The position numbers and the translations under genes were made by a program. A DNA stretch of 64,000 nucleotides from Sneathiella sp. (GTDB taxonomy: Bacteria > Pseudomonadota > Alphaproteobacteria > Sneathiellales > Sneathiellaceae): assembly GCF_002694385.1 (NCBI RefSeq), contig NZ_NZMB01000010.1, forward strand, positions 256,962-320,961. The letters are read 5' to 3'. The notes below the pieces were generated by a model that saw only the letters and a program-made list of their open reading frames with translations, was not told the DNA's origin and searched no databases. Position 1 is the stretch's first letter. Every line of letters begins with the position of its first letter. Shown here one piece after another: positions 46,377-60,880 of this stretch.

Positions 46377-46679
46377 TTATGAAAAAATCTTCTGCAGCTT
46401 CATGGCGATCCCCATGCTACCGGCAATCTTAAGCTTCCCCATCATGAAGGCAGTGGTCGGATCCAGATCTCCCTTGGCGAGCGCTTCGAAATTGTCTTTG
46501 GAAATCGTGATCGTGCAGTCGGCGTCCTTGTCTTCATTCGAGACGACATTCGGAACTGACGCCGCATCGAGATATACGATCCCCTCATCCCCGAAATCAA
46601 ACTTCAGCGTTGCATCAAGTCCGCTGTCCTCGCCGACCCTTTCCCGCAGGCCTTCGGTAATTTCTTGCAGCGTCGCCAT
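46377..46679 (-). CDS. SCP2 sterol-binding domain protein
   Basis: A 100-residue lipid-binding protein with the SCP2 fold: LKFDFGDEGIVYLDA, ADCTITISKDNFEALAKG, and DPTTAFMMGKLKIAGSMGIA are the consensus core. AAGGAAAAG precedes the ATG. It probably carries fatty acyl-CoA or lipids. Faces the SDR-acyl-CoA dehydrogenase operon across a shared 187-bp region. Confidence 0.92.
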   Translation of the reverse strand: MATLQEITEGLRERVGEDSGLDATLKFDFGDEGIVYLDAASVPNVVSNEDKDADCTITISKDNFEALAKGDLDPTTAFMMGKLKIAGSMGIAMKLQKIFS

Positions 46680-46758: not shown

Positions 46759-46780
46759 TTGACGTTAACGTAAAGGTCAA
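46759..46780 (+). promoter_or_regulatory. MerR-type operator/promoter before SDR-acyl-CoA dehydrogenase operon
   Basis: A 22-bp inverted repeat starting TTGACGTTAACG and ending GGTCAA. It matches the operator of the merR gene (60857-60880) at 20 of 22 positions. TTGACG serves as -35, and TTTAAT or TTAATC at 46783-46789 as -10, giving an 18- or 19-bp spacer that MerR-family activators re-shape. The ATG is 107 bp downstream. Confidence 0.75.
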
Positions 46781-46866
46781 GGTTTAATCTGTCAATTCCT
46801 GATCCGCTGTCATTGGTCGGCATCGGGCAGGACCCTGAAAAGCAAGAATAACAAAAGTGGGAGTTT

Positions 46867-47742
46867 TTGATGAACTATCGTTCCATTTATCGGCCGGGTC
46901 TTTTCGATGGGCAATCCATCATCATTACCGGCGGCGGCAGCGGCATCGGTCGCTGTACGGCGCACGAACTTGTCGCGCTCGGCGCCCGGGTCGCCCTGAT
47001 CGGCCGTTCCATGGACAAGCTTGAAACCGTCAAGGAGGAACTGGCCAAAGAAGGCGGCGAGGCCACCATTCATAGTTGCGATATCCGCAATGAAGAAGCT
47101 GTTCGAGATACCGTTGCCGATGTTATCAAACAGCATGGCGCCATCCATGGCCTGGTCAATAACGCGGGCGGGCAATTCCCTTCCCTGCTGGAAAATATTT
47201 CCTTCAACGGCTGGGAAGCCGTGGTCCGCAATAATCTGACCGGTGGTTTTCTGTTCAGCCGCGAATGCTATACCCAGTGGATGCGGGATAACGGCGGCGG
47301 CTCCATTGTCAATATCATCGCTGATATGTGGAACTCCATGCCCGGCATGGGGCACTCCGGCGCGGCCCGTAAAGGCATGCTCAGCTTGACGGAAACCGCC
47401 GCCCTTGAATGGGCCCCGGCGGGTGTCCGGGTCAATGCCGTCGCCCCCGGCCTGATCATTTCATCGGGGATGTATAATTATCCCGAATCATGGATTTCGC
47501 GCGTCAAGGCACGCATCGCCTCGCATCCGGTAAAGCGGCTCGGCACCGAATCAGAAATCTCTTCCGGGATTGTTTTCATGCTCTCGGAAGCCGCGGCCTT
47601 CATCACCGGAAGCTGCCTGCGGATCGACGGGGGCGCGCCCAACATCCGCATGAACTGGGATATTCCGGATCATAAAAACAACAAGCCCTATAACGGCTTT
47701 CACCTGGCCGACGTGCCGGAATTCTTACGGGAGGAAGAATGA
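46867..47742 (+). CDS. SDR family oxidoreductase (enoyl-CoA reductase-like)
   Basis: A 291-residue short-chain dehydrogenase. ITGGGSGIG (NAD(P) site) begins at about residue 19, NNAGG follows near 98, and the catalytic region is GHSGAARKGML, where the usual Tyr before Lys is replaced by Ala in S-G-A-A-R-K. This pattern is seen in PECR/DECR-like 2,4-dienoyl- or enoyl-CoA reductases rather than classical SDRs. GGGAG precedes the ATG. It overlaps the acyl-CoA dehydrogenase ATG by 4 bp (operon). Confidence 0.85.
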   Translation: MMNYRSIYRPGLFDGQSIIITGGGSGIGRCTAHELVALGARVALIGRSMDKLETVKEELAKEGGEATIHSCDIRNEEAVRDTVADVIKQHGAIHGLVNNAGGQFPSLLENISFNGWEAVVRNNLTGGFLFSRECYTQWMRDNGGGSIVNIIADMWNSMPGMGHSGAARKGMLSLTETAALEWAPAGVRVNAVAPGLIISSGMYNYPESWISRVKARIASHPVKRLGTESEISSGIVFMLSEAAAFITGSCLRIDGGAPNIRMNWDIPDHKNNKPYNGFHLADVPEFLREEE

Positions 47743-48902
47743 TGATTTACGGACCGGAACATGAGGAGCTGATCCGCTCTCTCACCAAATTCATTGATCA
47801 GGAGATAAATCCCCATGTCGATGAATGGGAGGCGGAAGGGGAATTCCCCACCCATGCGCTGTTCAAGAAGCTCGGCGATAAGGGATTTCTCGGCGTCTGT
47901 AAACCGGTCGAATTCGGCGGCCTCGGCCTAGATTATTCCTACAGCCTTGCCGTTTCGGAAACGCTTGGGAAAATTCACTGCGGTGGCGTCCCCATGGCCA
48001 TCGGTGTGCAGACGGACATGGCAACCCCGGCCCTCGCCCGCTTCGGCTCCGATTATGTGCGCGAGACCTATCTCCGCCCCGCTATCGCCGGCGATTTGGT
48101 CACCTGCATCGGCGTTTCGGAGCCCGGCGCGGGGTCGGATGTCGCGAACATCAAAAGCCACGCCCGCAAAGACGGCGAGGATTACATCATCAACGGCCAG
48201 AAAATGTGGATCACCAACGGCACCAAGGCCGACATCATGACCATGCTGGTCAACACCAGCGACGGGGCCATGCATGAAAGCAAATCCCTGATTGTTGTCC
48301 CCATGGACAGCCCCGGCATCACCGTCGCGCGCAAGCTCGACAAGATGGGCATGCGGTCCTCCGACACGGCGCAGCTTTATTTTGAAGACGTCAGGGTTCC
48401 CGCGCGAAACCTGATCGGCGAGGAAGGCAAGGGTTTCACCTACCAGATGCTGCAATTTCAGGAGGAACGCCTGTGGGCCGCAGGCGCCGGTCTGAAACCG
48501 CTGGAAAAAGCGATCAACGATGTCATCGACTATACCCGAACTCGTCAGGCGTTCGGCAAGCCGCTGCTGGATAATCAGTATATTCATTTCCGTCTCGCCG
48601 AATTGCTGACCGAGGTGGAGCAACTCCGTTCCCTCACCTATCGGGCTGTCTATGAGTATGTGCGCGGGGGCGATGTCACGATGCTCGCCTCCATGGCGAA
48701 GCTAAAAGTCGGGCGGCTAACCCGGGAAATCGCAGATGCCTGCCTGCAATATTACGGCGGCATGGGGTTCATGAATGAAACACCGATCACCCGGTTTTTC
48801 CGGGATGGGCGCCTCTCCTCCATCGGCGGCGGAGCAGATGAAGTCATGCTCGGGATCATCTGCAAGTATATGGATATTCTGCCAAAACAGCGGCGCGGAT
48901 GA
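47739..48902 (+). CDS. Acyl-CoA dehydrogenase
   Basis: FAD enzyme of 387 residues. CIGVSEPGAGSDVANI (FAD motif) and MWITNGTKAD lie in the middle. The C-terminal part has QYYGGMGFMNETPITRFFRDG with a glycine-rich loop. The start overlaps the SDR gene, so both should answer to the upstream MerR-type operator. Substrate not predictable; pairing with an enoyl-CoA reductase-like SDR suggests an unsaturated or branched chain. Confidence 0.9.
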   Translation: MMIYGPEHEELIRSLTKFIDQEINPHVDEWEAEGEFPTHALFKKLGDKGFLGVCKPVEFGGLGLDYSYSLAVSETLGKIHCGGVPMAIGVQTDMATPALARFGSDYVRETYLRPAIAGDLVTCIGVSEPGAGSDVANIKSHARKDGEDYIINGQKMWITNGTKADIMTMLVNTSDGAMHESKSLIVVPMDSPGITVARKLDKMGMRSSDTAQLYFEDVRVPARNLIGEEGKGFTYQMLQFQEERLWAAGAGLKPLEKAINDVIDYTRTRQAFGKPLLDNQYIHFRLAELLTEVEQLRSLTYRAVYEYVRGGDVTMLASMAKLKVGRLTREIADACLQYYGGMGFMNETPITRFFRDGRLSSIGGGADEVMLGIICKYMDILPKQRRG

Positions 48903-53677: not shown

Positions 53678-54814
53678 TTATAATTCCCTTGATATCAGTT
53701 CTTTCATGATTTCATTGGTGCCGCCGTAAATCCGCTGCACGCGGGCATCGGCATAGGCGCGGGCTACCCGGAATTCCCACATGAAGCCATAGCCGCCATG
53801 CAGCTGCAGGCACTCATCGATCACCTTGTTTTCGGTATCGGAGCACCAGTATTTCGCCATCGCCGCCGTGGAAACGGCCAGCTTGCCCTTGATCACCTCT
53901 TCGATACATTTATCAACGAAGGTCCGGGCAATCTGCACCTGCGTCTTCAGCTCCGCCAGTTTGAAACGGGTATTCTGGAATTTGATGATACTCTGGCCGA
54001 ACGCTGAACGATCCTTCGTGTATTCAATGGTTTCCTCCAGCACCGCTTCCATGGTTGCGGTGGCGGTGATGGCGATCTGTAACCGCTCCCACGCCAGCTC
54101 CTTCATCAGGCAGAAGAAGCCCTGCCCTTCCCCGCCCAGTATATTGCTGGCCGGAACCCGCACATCATCAAAGAACAGCTCGGACGTATCCTGCGCCTTC
54201 ATCCCCAGCTTTTCGAGGTTACGCCCCTTCTCAAACCCCGGCGTGCCCGCATCAACGAGGAACAGCGTCGTTCCCTTCGCGCCCGCATTGGGGTCCGTCT
54301 TGGTCACCACAATCACCACGTCGGACATAAAGCCATTGGTGATGAAGGTCTTGGAGCCATTAATGACGTAATGATCTCCATCCTTGACCGCGCGGGTCTT
54401 GACGCCCTGCAAATCGGAACCTGCCCCCGGCTCCGTCATGGCGATGGCGCCAATAATCTCGCCCTTCGCCATTCTCGGCAGGTAGTTCTTCTTCTGCTCT
54501 TCCGTGCCATAATTCAGGATATAGGGACCGACAATTTCGGAATGCAATCCAAAACCCGGGCCGGTCGCGCCCGCACGGGCCTGTTCTTCCATCATGATGA
54601 TGCTGTAAAGCTTGTCCGCGCCCGCGCCGCCAAACTCTTCCGGGATGGACATGCAAAGCAATCCCTGCTTGCCCGCCTCCAGCCACGCGTCCCGGCTGAC
54701 CTTGCCGTCCTTTTCCCATTTGCTGTGATGGGGGATGATATGCTCTTCATAAAAGCGGCGCACCGATTCCCTGAAAATATTATGTTCTTCGCTGAAAATT
54801 GTTCTTTCCATCAT
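53678..54814 (-). CDS. Acyl-CoA dehydrogenase
   Basis: A 378-residue FAD enzyme of the medium/long-chain or isovaleryl type. AMTEPGAGSDLQGVKTRAV and GSKTFITNGFMSD are the FAD region; the C-terminal LHGGYGFMWEFRVARAYADA and RIYGGTNEIMKELIS carry the Gly-rich helix. The start has two Met codons (MMERTI). It is transcribed away from the fadE gene region but on the same strand; a gap and hairpin (54958) separate them. Confidence 0.92.
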   Translation of the reverse strand: MMERTIFSEEHNIFRESVRRFYEEHIIPHHSKWEKDGKVSRDAWLEAGKQGLLCMSIPEEFGGAGADKLYSIIMMEEQARAGATGPGFGLHSEIVGPYILNYGTEEQKKNYLPRMAKGEIIGAIAMTEPGAGSDLQGVKTRAVKDGDHYVINGSKTFITNGFMSDVVIVVTKTDPNAGAKGTTLFLVDAGTPGFEKGRNLEKLGMKAQDTSELFFDDVRVPASNILGGEGQGFFCLMKELAWERLQIAITATATMEAVLEETIEYTKDRSAFGQSIIKFQNTRFKLAELKTQVQIARTFVDKCIEEVIKGKLAVSTAAMAKYWCSDTENKVIDECLQLHGGYGFMWEFRVARAYADARVQRIYGGTNEIMKELISREL

Positions 54815-54957
54815 CTCGCCACCTTTTTTGTTATGGTTCCCGGGTTATATATTTTTATGCATGACAGGGCGTCATATTCGCGCTCATTCTAGACAGGAGA
54901 AGACCCCCTTGTCAGCAAAAAGCGCGGACGCAGACGCCGCCAACAAGCAAAGCAGGA

Positions 54958-54985: not shown

Positions 54986-56776
54986 TTAGAATGCTTCCGC
55001 ATCCAGCTCCATCATTGTTCTTGCCCCGGCGCTCATTTTCACCAGCAGGGAGGAGACATCGGGGATCATCCGCTCAAAGAAGAAACGGGCGGTCACCAGC
55101 TTCGTCTTGTAAAATTCCGGATCATCCGTCCCGTCAGCCAGTTTCTGTTTGGAAATCTTCGCCATCTGCGCCCACATGTAGCCGAGCGCCACCAGACCGA
55201 ACATGCGGAGATATTCGCTTGATGCCGCGCCTGCCTCATCCGGCCGGGTCATGCCTTTTTCCGCAATCAGCGCGGTGCCCTGCTGAAGTTTGGCAAAGGC
55301 CTTGGCCAGCGGCAGGATATAATCCTTCATCTCCGGGTCCATCATGTTTTCCTGAATGAAGGCATCCACCGGATGGAAGAACTGGCGGAGATTCCGCCCC
55401 ATATTCTGCGGCAGCTTGCGGCCGACCAGATCGAGCGCCTGAATGCCGTTCGCCCCTTCATAAATCTGGGTGATGCGGGCATCGCGGACGAACTGCTCCA
55501 TCCCCCATTCATGAATATAGCCATGGCCGCCGTAGCACTGCATGGCCGTCGCCGCAAGCTTGAACCCCATATCGGTGAAATAGGCCTTGATCACCGGCGT
55601 CAGGAGGGAAAGCCCCTCGTCAGCATCCCGGCGGGCGTCCTCATCGGGGTGCTTGTCCACCATATCCACCTGCAATCCGGCCCAGAGACCAAGGGCGCGC
55701 GCGCCTTCCGTGAAAGCGCGGATCATCAGGAGATTACGGCGGATATCCGGATGAACGATGATCGGATCGGCCGGTTTGTCCGGCGCTTTGACGCCAGAGA
55801 TGGACCGTCCCTGCAAGCGGTCTTTTGCGTAGATGACCGCATTCTGATAGGCAACTTCCGCCTGGCTGAGGCCCTGGATACCGACGCCGAGACGGGCCGC
55901 GTTCATCATGGTGAACATGGCGCGCATGCCTTTATGCGCCTCCCCCAGCAGCCAGCCCGTCGCTTCGTCATAATTCATGACGCAGGTGGAGTTGCCATGG
56001 ATACCCATCTTATGCTCGATCGAGCCACAGGCGACGCCATTGCGTGTCTCCGGTTCCCCGTCCTTGTTCAACAGGAACTTCGGCACGATGAAAAGGGAAA
56101 CGCCCTTGATCCCCTCCGGTCCGCCCGGAATTTTCGCGAGCACGAGATGGACGATATTATCCGCCATGTCATGCTCCCCGGCGGAGATGAAAATCTTCGT
56201 GCCTGAGATTTTATAGCTGCCATCCTCCTGCGGCACCGCCTTGGTCCGCATCAGGCCAAGATCCGTGCCGCAATGCGGTTCGGTCAGGTTCATGGTGCCG
56301 GACCAGTCGCCGGTCACCATTTTCGGAAGCCAGGTTTTCTTCTGTTCCTCCGTGCCATGCTTGAGGATGGCGGCATAGGCGCCATGGGTAAGGCCCGGAT
56401 ACATGCCAAACGCCATATTGGCGGAGCTCATCATTTCCGCAAAGGCAATGCCGAGCACATGTGGCAGGCCTTGCCCACCATATTCAGGATCGGCATCCAG
56501 CCCCATCCAACCGGCGGCGCGATATTCGTCATAGGCGTGCTTGAAGCCGGTCGGCGTCGAAACCTCGCCATCCTTCCAGACACAACCTTCCTTGTCACCC
56601 ACCTGATTGAGCGGCTGGATGACTTCACTCATCAGCTTGGCGCCCTCTTCCAGAATGGCGTCAATCATATCTGGCGTTGCCTCTTCAAACCCCGGCATGT
56701 TGGTGAGCTTGTCAACACCAAGCAACTCATTGAGGACAAATTTGAAGTCTTTGACCGGTGCGTTATAAACGGGCAT
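54986..56776 (-). CDS. fadE: Acyl-CoA dehydrogenase with C-terminal extension (FadE/DmdC-like)
   Basis: A 596-residue enzyme. MNLTEPHCGTDLGLMRTKAV is the FAD motif; GYIHEWGMEQFVRDARI and IYEGANGIQALDLVGRKL (about residue 440) match the catalytic region; a C-terminal helical extension (about 470-590) is characteristic of large acyl-CoA dehydrogenases of the B. subtilis FadE and DmdC type. It follows the fadN-type gene by 13 bp and closes the fadA-fadN-fadE operon. Confidence 0.93.
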   Translation of the reverse strand: MPVYNAPVKDFKFVLNELLGVDKLTNMPGFEEATPDMIDAILEEGAKLMSEVIQPLNQVGDKEGCVWKDGEVSTPTGFKHAYDEYRAAGWMGLDADPEYGGQGLPHVLGIAFAEMMSSANMAFGMYPGLTHGAYAAILKHGTEEQKKTWLPKMVTGDWSGTMNLTEPHCGTDLGLMRTKAVPQEDGSYKISGTKIFISAGEHDMADNIVHLVLAKIPGGPEGIKGVSLFIVPKFLLNKDGEPETRNGVACGSIEHKMGIHGNSTCVMNYDEATGWLLGEAHKGMRAMFTMMNAARLGVGIQGLSQAEVAYQNAVIYAKDRLQGRSISGVKAPDKPADPIIVHPDIRRNLLMIRAFTEGARALGLWAGLQVDMVDKHPDEDARRDADEGLSLLTPVIKAYFTDMGFKLAATAMQCYGGHGYIHEWGMEQFVRDARITQIYEGANGIQALDLVGRKLPQNMGRNLRQFFHPVDAFIQENMMDPEMKDYILPLAKAFAKLQQGTALIAEKGMTRPDEAGAASSEYLRMFGLVALGYMWAQMAKISKQKLADGTDDPEFYKTKLVTARFFFERMIPDVSSLLVKMSAGARTMMELDAEAF

Positions 56777-56789
56777 CTCGATACTCCTT

Positions 56790-59123
56790 CTAGTTCCTGA
56801 GCGGCTTGCCGGTGGTGAGCATATGCTCGATCCGGTCCAGCGTTTTATGGTTGTGGATCAGCTTCATGAAGCCCTCGCGTTCCAGTTCCAGCAGCTTTTT
56901 CTCGGTGACCGGCTGGGTAATGTCCGTATCCCCGCCAGAGAGAACACGGCCAACCGCCGCACTCACAACCGCATCATAGGCTGTTGCCTTGCCCATGGTG
57001 ACGAAGCCGGAAACCGCCATGTCAAAGGCCGCCGCCGCCGTCGGGCCGGGCAGGTTGATCTCCACCTGCTCTGGCGCCTTATATCCCTCTACCATGGCCA
57101 GCGCCCGCTTCTTGGCGTCCGGCAACACCCTTTTCCGGTTCATGCTGATGCCATCTTCAGGCCGCAGGATCAGCATATCCCGTGCCTCCGCCGCACTTGT
57201 CGCGACCTTGGCCGTTGAAATCGCCTCAAAAACCGCGGCAAGCGCGGGCATCGCACCGCCCGGCCGCTTTTTGTTCAGGATCGCCCGCATCACCAGCTCT
57301 TTACAGCCGCCGAAGCCCGGGATGACCCCGACACCGACCTCGACAAGCCCCATATAGCTTTCCGCATGGGCCTGGACGGCGGCGGCGGACAAAACAATTT
57401 CACACCCGCCCCCCAGCGCCATACCGGCCGGGGCCGCGACCACCGGGAAAGGCGCGTATTTCAGCTTCATCAGGGCGTTCTGCCCCTCGCTCATGGAGTT
57501 TTCGATCACCGGCCACATGGCGGCATTGGCGGCAAACAGGGCGAGCCCCACATTGGCGCCGACCGAGAAATTATCCGCATCATTGCCGATGACCAGCGCC
57601 TTGAAGCCTTTCTTGTCGATCTTGCCCGCCTCCTGCAGCATGGCCACGACATCCTGATCGATGGAATTCATCTTGGTGTGGATTTCAAGGCAGGCAACCC
57701 CGTCCCCGAGATCCCAGATACTCGCCCCCTTGTTCGACATGACAGGCTCGCGCCCGCGCTTGATATCCGCCAGCATCCAGGCGTCATCGGCGACCGGAAC
57801 CACGGCATAATCGCCCTTGACCGTCATATAGAAGGCATCCGTCCCCTCTTCCTTATACAGCGGGCGATCGCCAACGGTTTTAAGGAAATCCGGCACCGGC
57901 AGGCCTTCTGCGGCAAGCCGGTCAATGAAATACTGATTGCCGAGCTGATCGAGCTGTTCGAAGGGGCCATATTTCCACGCGTAGCCGGTTTTCATGGCCG
58001 TATCTATGGCGATGATATCATCGGCGATTTCACCGACCAGCGACGCCGCATAGGAAATGGTTTTTGACAGGATCGCCCAGGCGTATTCCCCGCCTTTGTC
58101 ATCATATTCGACAAGGGCGCGGAGGCCCTTTTTCGCCGCCTTGACGGACGCTAGATCAGGCTTACCCGCCTTGGCATAGTCGCCGGTTTTGAGGTTGCGG
58201 GCTTCTTTGACCTTCTTCCCGCCGTCCTTGTTCATGCGATAGAAACCGCCCTTGCCTTTCCGGCCGGTATAGCCATCGGCAATCATCGTCTCAATGGTTT
58301 TGACCATCGGATGATCCGGATCATATTCCTTTGCGAAAGTATCGCTCTTGGGGAGTTCCTTCAGCATGGAGGCGATGACTTTCGGGCCGAGATCGATCCC
58401 GGTCAGATCGCCAAGCCCGAAAATCCCGGTCGAAGGAATGCCCATCGGCTTGCCGCAGACGGCATCCGCCTCCTCCACCGTGAGGCCGAGATCATAGGCC
58501 GAACGCGTCGCGACGGAGGACCAGTAAATGCCAATGCGGTTGCCGACGAAACCCGGCGTGTCATACGCATCGACCACTTCCTTGCCGAGCTTGACATCCG
58601 CGAAATCCCGCAGCGCCGTCAGCGCCTCTTTCCGCGTCTTTGCCCCGCCAACCAGTTCAAACAGCCGCATATAGCGCGGCGGGTTGAAGAAATGGGTGAT
58701 GGCGAAATCTTTTTGCAGGCTGTCCGGCATCCCGTCCATCAGGGATTTGAGCGGAATGGTCGAGGTGTTGGAGGTGACAATCGACCCTGCTTTGCGCACG
58801 CCCTCAAGCCGTTTGTAGAGATCCTGCTTGATGGCCGGATTTTCGACAATCGCCTCGCAGATCCAGTCGCAATCGGCAATGAGATCGAGGTTATCCTCCA
58901 GATTGCCGGGGGTGACGAGACGCGCGTTCTTCTTGTGCATGAAGGGCGCGGGGTTGGTTTTCAGCAGGGCCGCAATCGCGCCTTCGGCCAGCATATTGCG
59001 ATTTTTTGCATCCGCTGGAACGATGTCCAGCAGCACGACCGGAATGCCCGCATTGGCGACATGGGCGGCAATCGCCGCGCCCATGACACCGGCGCCGATA
59101 ACGGCAACCTTTTCAATGGCCAT
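56790..59123 (-). CDS. fadN: 3-hydroxyacyl-CoA dehydrogenase / enoyl-CoA hydratase (FadN-type order)
   Basis: A 777-residue bifunctional beta-oxidation protein. The start is the ATG at 59123 (MAIEKVAVIG), one base after the thiolase stop. The dehydrogenase comes first (GAGVMGAAIAAH at 9-20; dimerisation and second half to about 430), and the enoyl-CoA hydratase/isomerase domain last (ALGGGCEIVLSAAA and GVGVIPGFGG near residue 600). This order is that of B. subtilis FadN and the reverse of E. coli FadB. It may therefore work as an independent pair with thiolase without the FadBA-type complex. Confidence 0.92.
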   Translation of the reverse strand: MAIEKVAVIGAGVMGAAIAAHVANAGIPVVLLDIVPADAKNRNMLAEGAIAALLKTNPAPFMHKKNARLVTPGNLEDNLDLIADCDWICEAIVENPAIKQDLYKRLEGVRKAGSIVTSNTSTIPLKSLMDGMPDSLQKDFAITHFFNPPRYMRLFELVGGAKTRKEALTALRDFADVKLGKEVVDAYDTPGFVGNRIGIYWSSVATRSAYDLGLTVEEADAVCGKPMGIPSTGIFGLGDLTGIDLGPKVIASMLKELPKSDTFAKEYDPDHPMVKTIETMIADGYTGRKGKGGFYRMNKDGGKKVKEARNLKTGDYAKAGKPDLASVKAAKKGLRALVEYDDKGGEYAWAILSKTISYAASLVGEIADDIIAIDTAMKTGYAWKYGPFEQLDQLGNQYFIDRLAAEGLPVPDFLKTVGDRPLYKEEGTDAFYMTVKGDYAVVPVADDAWMLADIKRGREPVMSNKGASIWDLGDGVACLEIHTKMNSIDQDVVAMLQEAGKIDKKGFKALVIGNDADNFSVGANVGLALFAANAAMWPVIENSMSEGQNALMKLKYAPFPVVAAPAGMALGGGCEIVLSAAAVQAHAESYMGLVEVGVGVIPGFGGCKELVMRAILNKKRPGGAMPALAAVFEAISTAKVATSAAEARDMLILRPEDGISMNRKRVLPDAKKRALAMVEGYKAPEQVEINLPGPTAAAAFDMAVSGFVTMGKATAYDAVVSAAVGRVLSGGDTDITQPVTEKKLLELEREGFMKLIHNHKTLDRIEHMLTTGKPLRN

Positions 59124-59124
59124 C

Positions 59125-60261
59125 TCAGCAGGCCTCCAGAACCGTCGCAATACCCTGACCGCCGCCAATGCACTGGGTCGCAAGACCGAGTGCCTTTCCT
59201 TCGCGTTGCAGCAGGCTGGCCAGCTTGCCGGTGATGCGCGCGCCCGTCGCACCAAGCGGATGGCCCAGCGCAATGGCGCCGCCATCAATATTGGTTTTGG
59301 CAAAATCAATGCCGGTCTCGCGAATGACGGCCAGCGCCTGCGCTGCGAAAGCTTCATTCAGCTCGACAATATCAATGTCCGTGATACTGACTCCGGCGCG
59401 TTTCAACGCCTTTTCGGTCGCCGGAACCGGACCTATCCCCATGATTTCGGGGGCACAGCCGGCCACCGCAATGGAACGGATGCGCGCCAGCTTCTTGAGA
59501 CCGTTTGCATCGGCATATTCTTCAGAACAAACCAGCGTGACCGATGCCCCGTCGGTCAGCGGGGAGGACGTCGCTGCCGTGACCGTGCCCTTTTCATCGA
59601 AGGCAGGCTTCAGGCCGGCCAGCGTTTCCATCGTGGTTTCGGGGCGGATGCAGCCATCCTGATCCACCCGGATGTTGCCATCAACAATCGGGATAATCTC
59701 GTCAGTGAATTTGCCAGCCTCCCGTGCGGCGCTCGCGCGGGCATGGCTTTCAACGGCAACTTCTTCCTGCTCCTTGCGGGAGATATCATATTTCTTGGAG
59801 AGGTTTTCCGCCGTAATGCCCATGGAGACATAGGCCTCCGGATATTTTTTATAAAGGCCCGGATGCGGCGCCGGGTTGAAGCCGCCCATGGGAATGCGGG
59901 TCATGCTTTCGATCCCGCCGCAGATAAACACATCGCCTGCGCCCATCTGGATCGCGCCCGCCGCCATATGGATCGACTGCATGGAGGAGCCGCAGAAACG
60001 ATTGACGGTCGTGCCCGCCGCGCTGATCGGAATCCCGGCCAGGAAGCTGATGAGCCGCGCGACATTGAGGCCCTGCTCCGCCTCCGGAAAGGCGCAACCG
60101 ATGATGACATCCTCGATATCCGCCGTATTCACGCCTGATTTTTCAATCAGCCCCTTAACCACCTGCGCCGTCATTTCATCGGGCCGAACCTTGACCAGTT
60201 CTCCCTTGTTGGCGAGGGTGAAGGGGGAGCGTGCATATCCCGCGATTACAACATTCTTCAT
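59125..60261 (-). CDS. fadA: Acetyl-CoA C-acyltransferase (thiolase)
   Basis: Thiolase of 378 residues. The nucleophile loop is RFCGSSMQSIH (Cys near residue 90). The C-terminal motifs are NEAFAAQALAV, GGAIALGHPLGATGAR (His) and CIGGGQGIATVLE (Cys base). It is the first enzyme gene of the operon after merR, with fadN following by one base. Degradative thiolase fits the context; acetoacetyl-CoA thiolase cannot be excluded from sequence alone. Confidence 0.93.
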   Translation of the reverse strand: MKNVVIAGYARSPFTLANKGELVKVRPDEMTAQVVKGLIEKSGVNTADIEDVIIGCAFPEAEQGLNVARLISFLAGIPISAAGTTVNRFCGSSMQSIHMAAGAIQMGAGDVFICGGIESMTRIPMGGFNPAPHPGLYKKYPEAYVSMGITAENLSKKYDISRKEQEEVAVESHARASAAREAGKFTDEIIPIVDGNIRVDQDGCIRPETTMETLAGLKPAFDEKGTVTAATSSPLTDGASVTLVCSEEYADANGLKKLARIRSIAVAGCAPEIMGIGPVPATEKALKRAGVSITDIDIVELNEAFAAQALAVIRETGIDFAKTNIDGGAIALGHPLGATGARITGKLASLLQREGKALGLATQCIGGGQGIATVLEAC

Positions 60262-60381: not shown

Positions 60382-60822
60382 TTACGCGATTGTTTTTCTG
60401 GCACCCTTTGACGGCTTGCCGCCAGTGCTGAGATAATCCTTGAGCTGGCGGATGCCGTCCTCAAGTTCGGAGATCGCCTCATTGATATCGGCGCGCTGAA
60501 TATTCAGCTTCGCAAGCTGCTCTTCACATTTCTGCAAGGTAAAGGTGAGCTGATCCTTCGCGCCGCTTTCCGGAGAATACATATCCAGCATCTTCTTGAT
60601 ATCCTGAAGGCTGAATCCAAGGCGGCGGCCGCGCAGAATAATCTTGAGGCGCCCCCGGTCCTTGCGCGAATAGACCCGTGTAGTCCCTTCCCGCGCGGGG
60701 TTGATCAGCCCCTTGTCTTCATAAAAGCGGATGGTGCGCGAGGTTACGCCAAATTCTTCGGCCAGCTCCGTGATGGAAAAGCTGACCCGTTCCTCCGTGG
60801 CGATTTTCATTCTGGCATTCAT
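60382..60822 (-). CDS. MerR-family regulator of the beta-oxidation operon
   Basis: A 146-residue regulator. The N-terminal winged helix-turn-helix is ITELAEEFGVTSRTIRFYED, KGLINPAREGTTRVYS; a coiled-coil dimer helix follows (about 90-130). There is no Cys pair at the C-terminus as in metal-sensing MerR, so a CoA ester or other organic ligand is likely. Close to the LiuR type that controls branched-chain or fatty acid breakdown. Starts possible at 60822 or 60810. It precedes fadA on the same strand and has a perfect palindromic operator before it. Confidence 0.9.
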   Translation of the reverse strand: MNARMKIATEERVSFSITELAEEFGVTSRTIRFYEDKGLINPAREGTTRVYSRKDRGRLKIILRGRRLGFSLQDIKKMLDMYSPESGAKDQLTFTLQKCEEQLAKLNIQRADINEAISELEDGIRQLKDYLSTGGKPSKGARKTIA

Positions 60823-60856
60823 GTGAGTCCCAATCTCTACCCTGACCATGAATATA

Positions 60857-60880
60857 GTTGACGTTTACGTAAACGTCAAC
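60857..60880 (-). promoter_or_regulatory. MerR operator (perfect 24-bp palindrome) and promoter
   Basis: GTTGACGTTTAC and its exact inverted copy make a 24-bp perfect palindrome, 35 bp before merR. On the minus strand TTGACG acts as -35, and TATATT, 17 bp later, as -10. A copy with 20 of 22 matching positions is at 46759-46780. LiuR-like sites of other proteobacteria have similar ACGT-containing arms. It likely drives merR-fadA-fadN-fadE. Confidence 0.8.

Follow-up and report, generated by a model that had tools for sequence, protein, structure and literature searches.

The window (the whole 64-kb stretch of DNA analysed here) contains two near-identical candidate operators, neither assigned to a strand. 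Operator 1 (GTTGACGTTTACGTAAACGTCAAC; 60857-60880) is a perfect 24-bp palindrome that precedes a MerR-family regulator gene, and operator 2 (TTGACGTTAACGTAAAGGTCAA; 46759-46780) lies between an SDR-acyl-CoA dehydrogenase (ACAD) gene pair and a divergent gene for an SCP2 sterol-carrier-like protein. Operator 2 is identical to the core of operator 1 (60858-60879) at 20 of 22 positions, which confirms the positions, the palindrome and the degree of identity given in an earlier note on this DNA. Its gene assignments are correct too, with the MerR gene on the minus strand at 60382-60849 and the SDR gene overlapping the ACAD gene on the plus strand.

The regulator gene (60382..60849, minus strand) encodes a MerR-family protein of the LiuR clade, in which the domains PF13411, PF00376 and PF09278 (the HTH and the dimerisation region) score above cut-off. 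Because the start at 60849 is only a few bases from the predicted −10 box, translation probably begins at the ATG at 60822. Three genes follow on the same strand: the thiolase gene fadA (59125..60261; TIGR01930 above cut-off), a fadN/fadB-type gene for a 3-hydroxyacyl-CoA dehydrogenase/enoyl-CoA hydratase (56790..59123, the open reading frame listed from 59357 being over-long), and a fadE-type acyl-CoA dehydrogenase gene (54986..56776) whose product carries the C-terminal domain PF12806. The operon probably ends after fadE, at a terminator-like stem (54978-54955). Another ACAD gene (53678-54814) was excluded from the merR operon, since both this stem and a promoter-like site at 54915 precede it. 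The predicted merR promoter (60851..60879, minus strand) has its −35 box, TTGACG, within the left arm of the palindrome and its −10 box, TATATT, after a 17-nt spacer, so that the operator extends over this −35 box and spacer. Among relatives, the motif cTAtA.T after the operator is kept, and the operator core upstream of merR is conserved at 21-22 of 22 positions in nearly all gene-bearing genomes of the genus. In part of the genus (L016-L021 and L025), a second copy of the palindrome, full or partial, stands in tandem with the merR operator, some 22 bp further upstream; this copy is absent from the window.

At operator 2, the SDR gene (46870..47742, plus strand) shares a 4-base overlap with the ACAD gene (47739..48902, plus strand). 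The SDR comes closest to a solved dehydrogenase of citronellol catabolism (6lln; E 7e-101) and to the human, peroxisomal trans-2-enoyl-CoA reductase (1yxm). The SCP2 gene (46377..46679, minus strand; PF02036) has operator 2 in common with the SDR gene, and the SDR-SCP2 gene order is maintained in the genus, in a sister genus (G024) and in a genome of another family (G025). Operator 2 itself is conserved beside the orthologous SDR gene of 20 genomes in the genus, with an identity of 0.95 as against 0.30 in the upstream flank.

We then consider how specific these sites are. Within the window, operators 1 and 2 are the only sites with at most three mismatches to the palindrome, and 100 dinucleotide shuffles contained none. 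The earlier note had proposed a whole-genome scan, and pattern searches of 3,599,778 bases in 30 contigs found four sites matching the 22-mer with at most three mismatches (reversed control, 0), which extends the putative regulon beyond two operons. A looser search with a 16-base core and one mismatch returned the same four and none besides, with one match per strand in the control. Under a 37.7-bit matrix built from 72 genus sites, a training set that includes the four sites scored, the window sites reached 41.3 and 35.8 and all four genome sites 30.7-41.3, as compared with a best chance score of 7.6 in 3.6 Mb of Markov sequence. Given their rarity in shuffles and reversed control and scores far above the Markov peak, the four genome sites are not due to chance.

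The two further sites lie at C6:77680 and C22:141706. The first precedes an uncharacterised but conserved diiron-oxygenase-like gene (C6:76529-77632, minus strand; L003:350-1453), whose product shows weak, sub-threshold similarity to AurF and to aldehyde-deformylating oxygenase. Two ExxH pairs are conserved in this protein (E141-H144 and E221-H224, L062 numbering), and a FemAB-like gene adjoins its gene in the genus. Its predicted structure had a pLDDT of 43.7 and was set aside. The second site precedes a gene for an MBL-fold hydrolase followed by one for an enoyl-CoA hydratase, with a fadE-like gene directly ahead of the pair; a TACAAT-like −10 box stands here at the same place relative to the operator as at merR.

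These associations are retained across species. All 24 genomes of the genus have sites, one to five each, and the control gave 0 throughout. Among the 49 sites examined in the genus other than those at merR, SDR-ACAD/SCP2 accounts for 19, the diiron-like gene for 20 and the MBL hydrolase-enoyl-CoA hydratase pair for 9, so that 48 of 49 belong to the same three further operons; the sole outlier (L094) precedes an open reading frame with distant similarity to an acyl-CoA dehydrogenase. Pairwise identity over the 22 operator bases was 0.97 at merR, 0.95 at SDR, 0.93 at the diiron-like gene and 0.87 at the MBL operon, and only 0.30-0.38 over the 30 bases upstream of the operators. All four targets recur in the sister genus, and the merR, SDR/SCP2 and MBL targets in G025. 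More widely, of 80 named loci with a related MerR gene, almost all from alphaproteobacteria and mostly with operator-like sites nearby, 78 have fadE-, fadA- or fadN-type genes beside the MerR gene. In G057, a genome of another family, an operator-like site with two mismatches (L254:2001-2022) precedes a gene for a FadL-type outer-membrane transporter-like protein.

To what kind of regulator does the MerR protein belong? Its score against the curated metal-sensing equivalog models (CueR, ZntR, MerR and CadR) did not exceed 59.8 bits, far below their cut-offs of 143-168. In a tree of 72 rows, the protein fell into a 68-row clade (support 100/99) together with the LiuR proteins of Marinobacter, Aeromonas, Photobacterium and Vibrio, and CueR and the genome's three other MerR proteins fell outside; several branches are long, and the order inside the LiuR clade, being unsure, was not used. 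The gammaproteobacterial LiuR proteins were recognised by their liuABCDE neighbours, which are annotated in Marinobacter and were identified by comparison in Aeromonas, Photobacterium and Vibrio. Of the traits of LiuR, an ACGT palindrome as operator, the regulator's own gene included, was found here, and control of ILV (liu/ivd) genes was not: no operator occurs inside the genome's own liu operon (liuA at about C6:35173, liuBCDE near C6:40300-45700) or in the 5 kb that precede it. This absence points to targets of fatty-acid type and not leucine breakdown. On this ground we class the protein encoded at 60382-60849 as a LiuR-group protein of a fatty-acid branch and not as a functional LiuR. Control of the sites by a paralogous MerR protein is unlikely, the three paralogs being distant and outside the LiuR clade.

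Taken together, these results argue, with a probability of roughly 85%, that this LiuR-group MerR protein binds the four palindromes, represses the genes behind them, its own included, and responds to acyl-CoA. A MerR dimer would bind the 22-24-bp palindrome TTGACGTTTACGTAAACGTCAA and, lying over the −35 box and spacer, would most likely block RNA polymerase, with an acyl-CoA intermediate as the most likely trigger of its release. In this way the protein would autoregulate merR-fadA-fadN-fadE and control three more operons, namely SDR-ACAD (with the divergent SCP2 gene), the AurF/aldehyde-oxygenase-like diiron protein and the MBL hydrolase-enoyl-CoA hydratase pair; the sites, their rarity, their conservation at orthologous genes, the kinship of the protein and the promoter geometry are computed results, and we infer binding, the sign of control, the effector and the operon structure. 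Repression by promoter occupancy is the simplest reading because the spacer at merR is 17 nt, whereas classical, metal-type activating MerR proteins work on spacers of 19-20 nt (PMC5045206). That family habit is what favours a classical activator that untwists the promoter; however, at both merR and the MBL operon the spacing is 17 nt and the −10 box good, so that untwisting is unneeded, at the diiron gene the operator is seemingly downstream of a TA-rich promoter-like sequence, and LiuR has been reported as a repressor (PMC3223726), all of which makes activation distinctly improbable. Less credible still is the idea that the sites belong to another regulator, with the merR palindrome just one of its targets. 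Two TetR genes (49655 and 51673) do lie between the two sites, one of them near SDR-ACAD, but wherever a LiuR-type MerR protein occurs, in different genera and families and even in Rubrobacter, the palindrome precedes the merR gene itself.

The reach of operator 2 depends on how its promoters are read. The SDR group has a second conserved element, TGTCAAATA, about 9 bases downstream of the operator, which on the other strand reads TTGACA, and TTGAC(A/T) is found at a fixed distance from the SDR-group operator in nearly all relatives. We infer that on the reverse strand this element acts as the −35 box of the SCP2 gene, with the operator supplying the −10 region. The candidate SCP2 promoter (46767..46795, minus strand) would thus consist of TTGACA (46795-46790), 17 nt, and TACGTT (46772-46767) inside the operator; TACGTT is a weak match, and promoter prediction did not list this promoter. 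A conserved element beside operator 2 (CTGTCAAWTMCTGATC) was considered as the site of a different regulator. It has one exact match in the genome, the rest having two mismatches (8, versus 2 in the reversed control), and since a genome search did not point to another conserved target we read it as a promoter element. In the window's clade, the SDR direction lacks a conserved promoter where merR and the MBL operon would lead one to expect it, and the geometry differs between targets, which counts against the proposed regulon. Operator 2 probably also serves the SCP2 gene. That it mainly controls this gene and not SDR-ACAD seems unlikely: the fixed minus-strand TTGACA does place the SCP2 −10 box within the operator, and G057 has a site before an SCP2 gene without an adjoining SDR gene, but the SDR gene remains beside the site in the genus, in G024 and in G025, and one clade keeps a TACCAT at a spacing of 17 nt from TTGACG in the SDR direction. 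Both SCP2 and SDR-ACAD may be controlled from operator 2. The proposal of the earlier note that one MerR protein acts on both window operons is well supported by comparison, since each site keeps its place at the corresponding genes throughout the genus, in the sister genus and in another family, and since protein and operator match LiuR. Its extent was incomplete, as the predicted regulon comprises four operons and not two, together with a probable SCP2 target, and ILV breakdown, which LiuR classically controls, is not among the predicted targets.

Other regulators of fatty-acid degradation, PsrA, FadR and FadP, are alike in role but are unrelated proteins of the TetR or GntR families. Kazakov et al. 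are said to have described in 2009 (J Bacteriol 191:52) LiuR orthologs that control fatty-acid degradation in alphaproteobacteria, which would make them similar to the present system in class, regulator group and type of target. No paper dealing directly with MerR regulation of alphaproteobacterial fad genes turned up in a literature search. The LiuR proteins of gamma- and betaproteobacteria are 44-49% identical to the window's protein and belong with it to one supported clade, and the gammaproteobacterial operators, near-identical ACGT palindromes before the regulator's own gene or operon, agree with those of the window at 18-19 of 22 positions; in contrast, the targets there are genes of leucine/ILV degradation, and here operons of fatty-acid type. 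Published work describes LiuR as a MerR-family protein that represses ILV genes (PMC3223726; PMC5343134). A LiuR/ILV box has also been described in Rhodospirillum rubrum, likewise an alphaproteobacterium with a box before the regulator's own gene, although boxes there precede the ivd and liu clusters (PMC7238569). In the alphaproteobacterium G052, a LiuR-group gene lies beside liuA (L256 1-1997) with a 22/22 operator, unlike the fad context of the window; from this context the LiuR group appears to have both kinds of target, liu and fad, within one class. A plasmid of Rubrobacter radiotolerans carries a 22/22 operator (L220:5955-5976) ahead of genes for a LiuR-type MerR protein and an isovaleryl-CoA-dehydrogenase-like protein, and its occurrence in an actinobacterium suggests transfer or extreme conservation of the operator.

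The kind of regulator is therefore already known as LiuR, and what is added here is a fuller list of its putative targets. The joint presence of an ACAD, SCP2 and a diiron-like oxygenase in the regulon of the SDR suggests a pathway that may act on chains of branched, unsaturated or isoprenoid type. A more specific possibility, which we regard as doubtful, is that the four co-regulated operons together serve one pathway reserved for an acyl chain of unusual type (e.g. methyl-branched or isoprenoid), in which the diiron protein would convert an acyl intermediate in a way not yet described. With four sites per 3.6 Mb, the predicted regulon is compact and nearly background-free, and it would link three poorly described operons, among them the one for the diiron-oxygenase-like protein, with the breakdown of fatty acids or acyl-CoA. 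Finally, the operator is almost unchanged from that of gammaproteobacterial LiuR and the targets differ, as if the regulator had kept its DNA site and changed its pathway.
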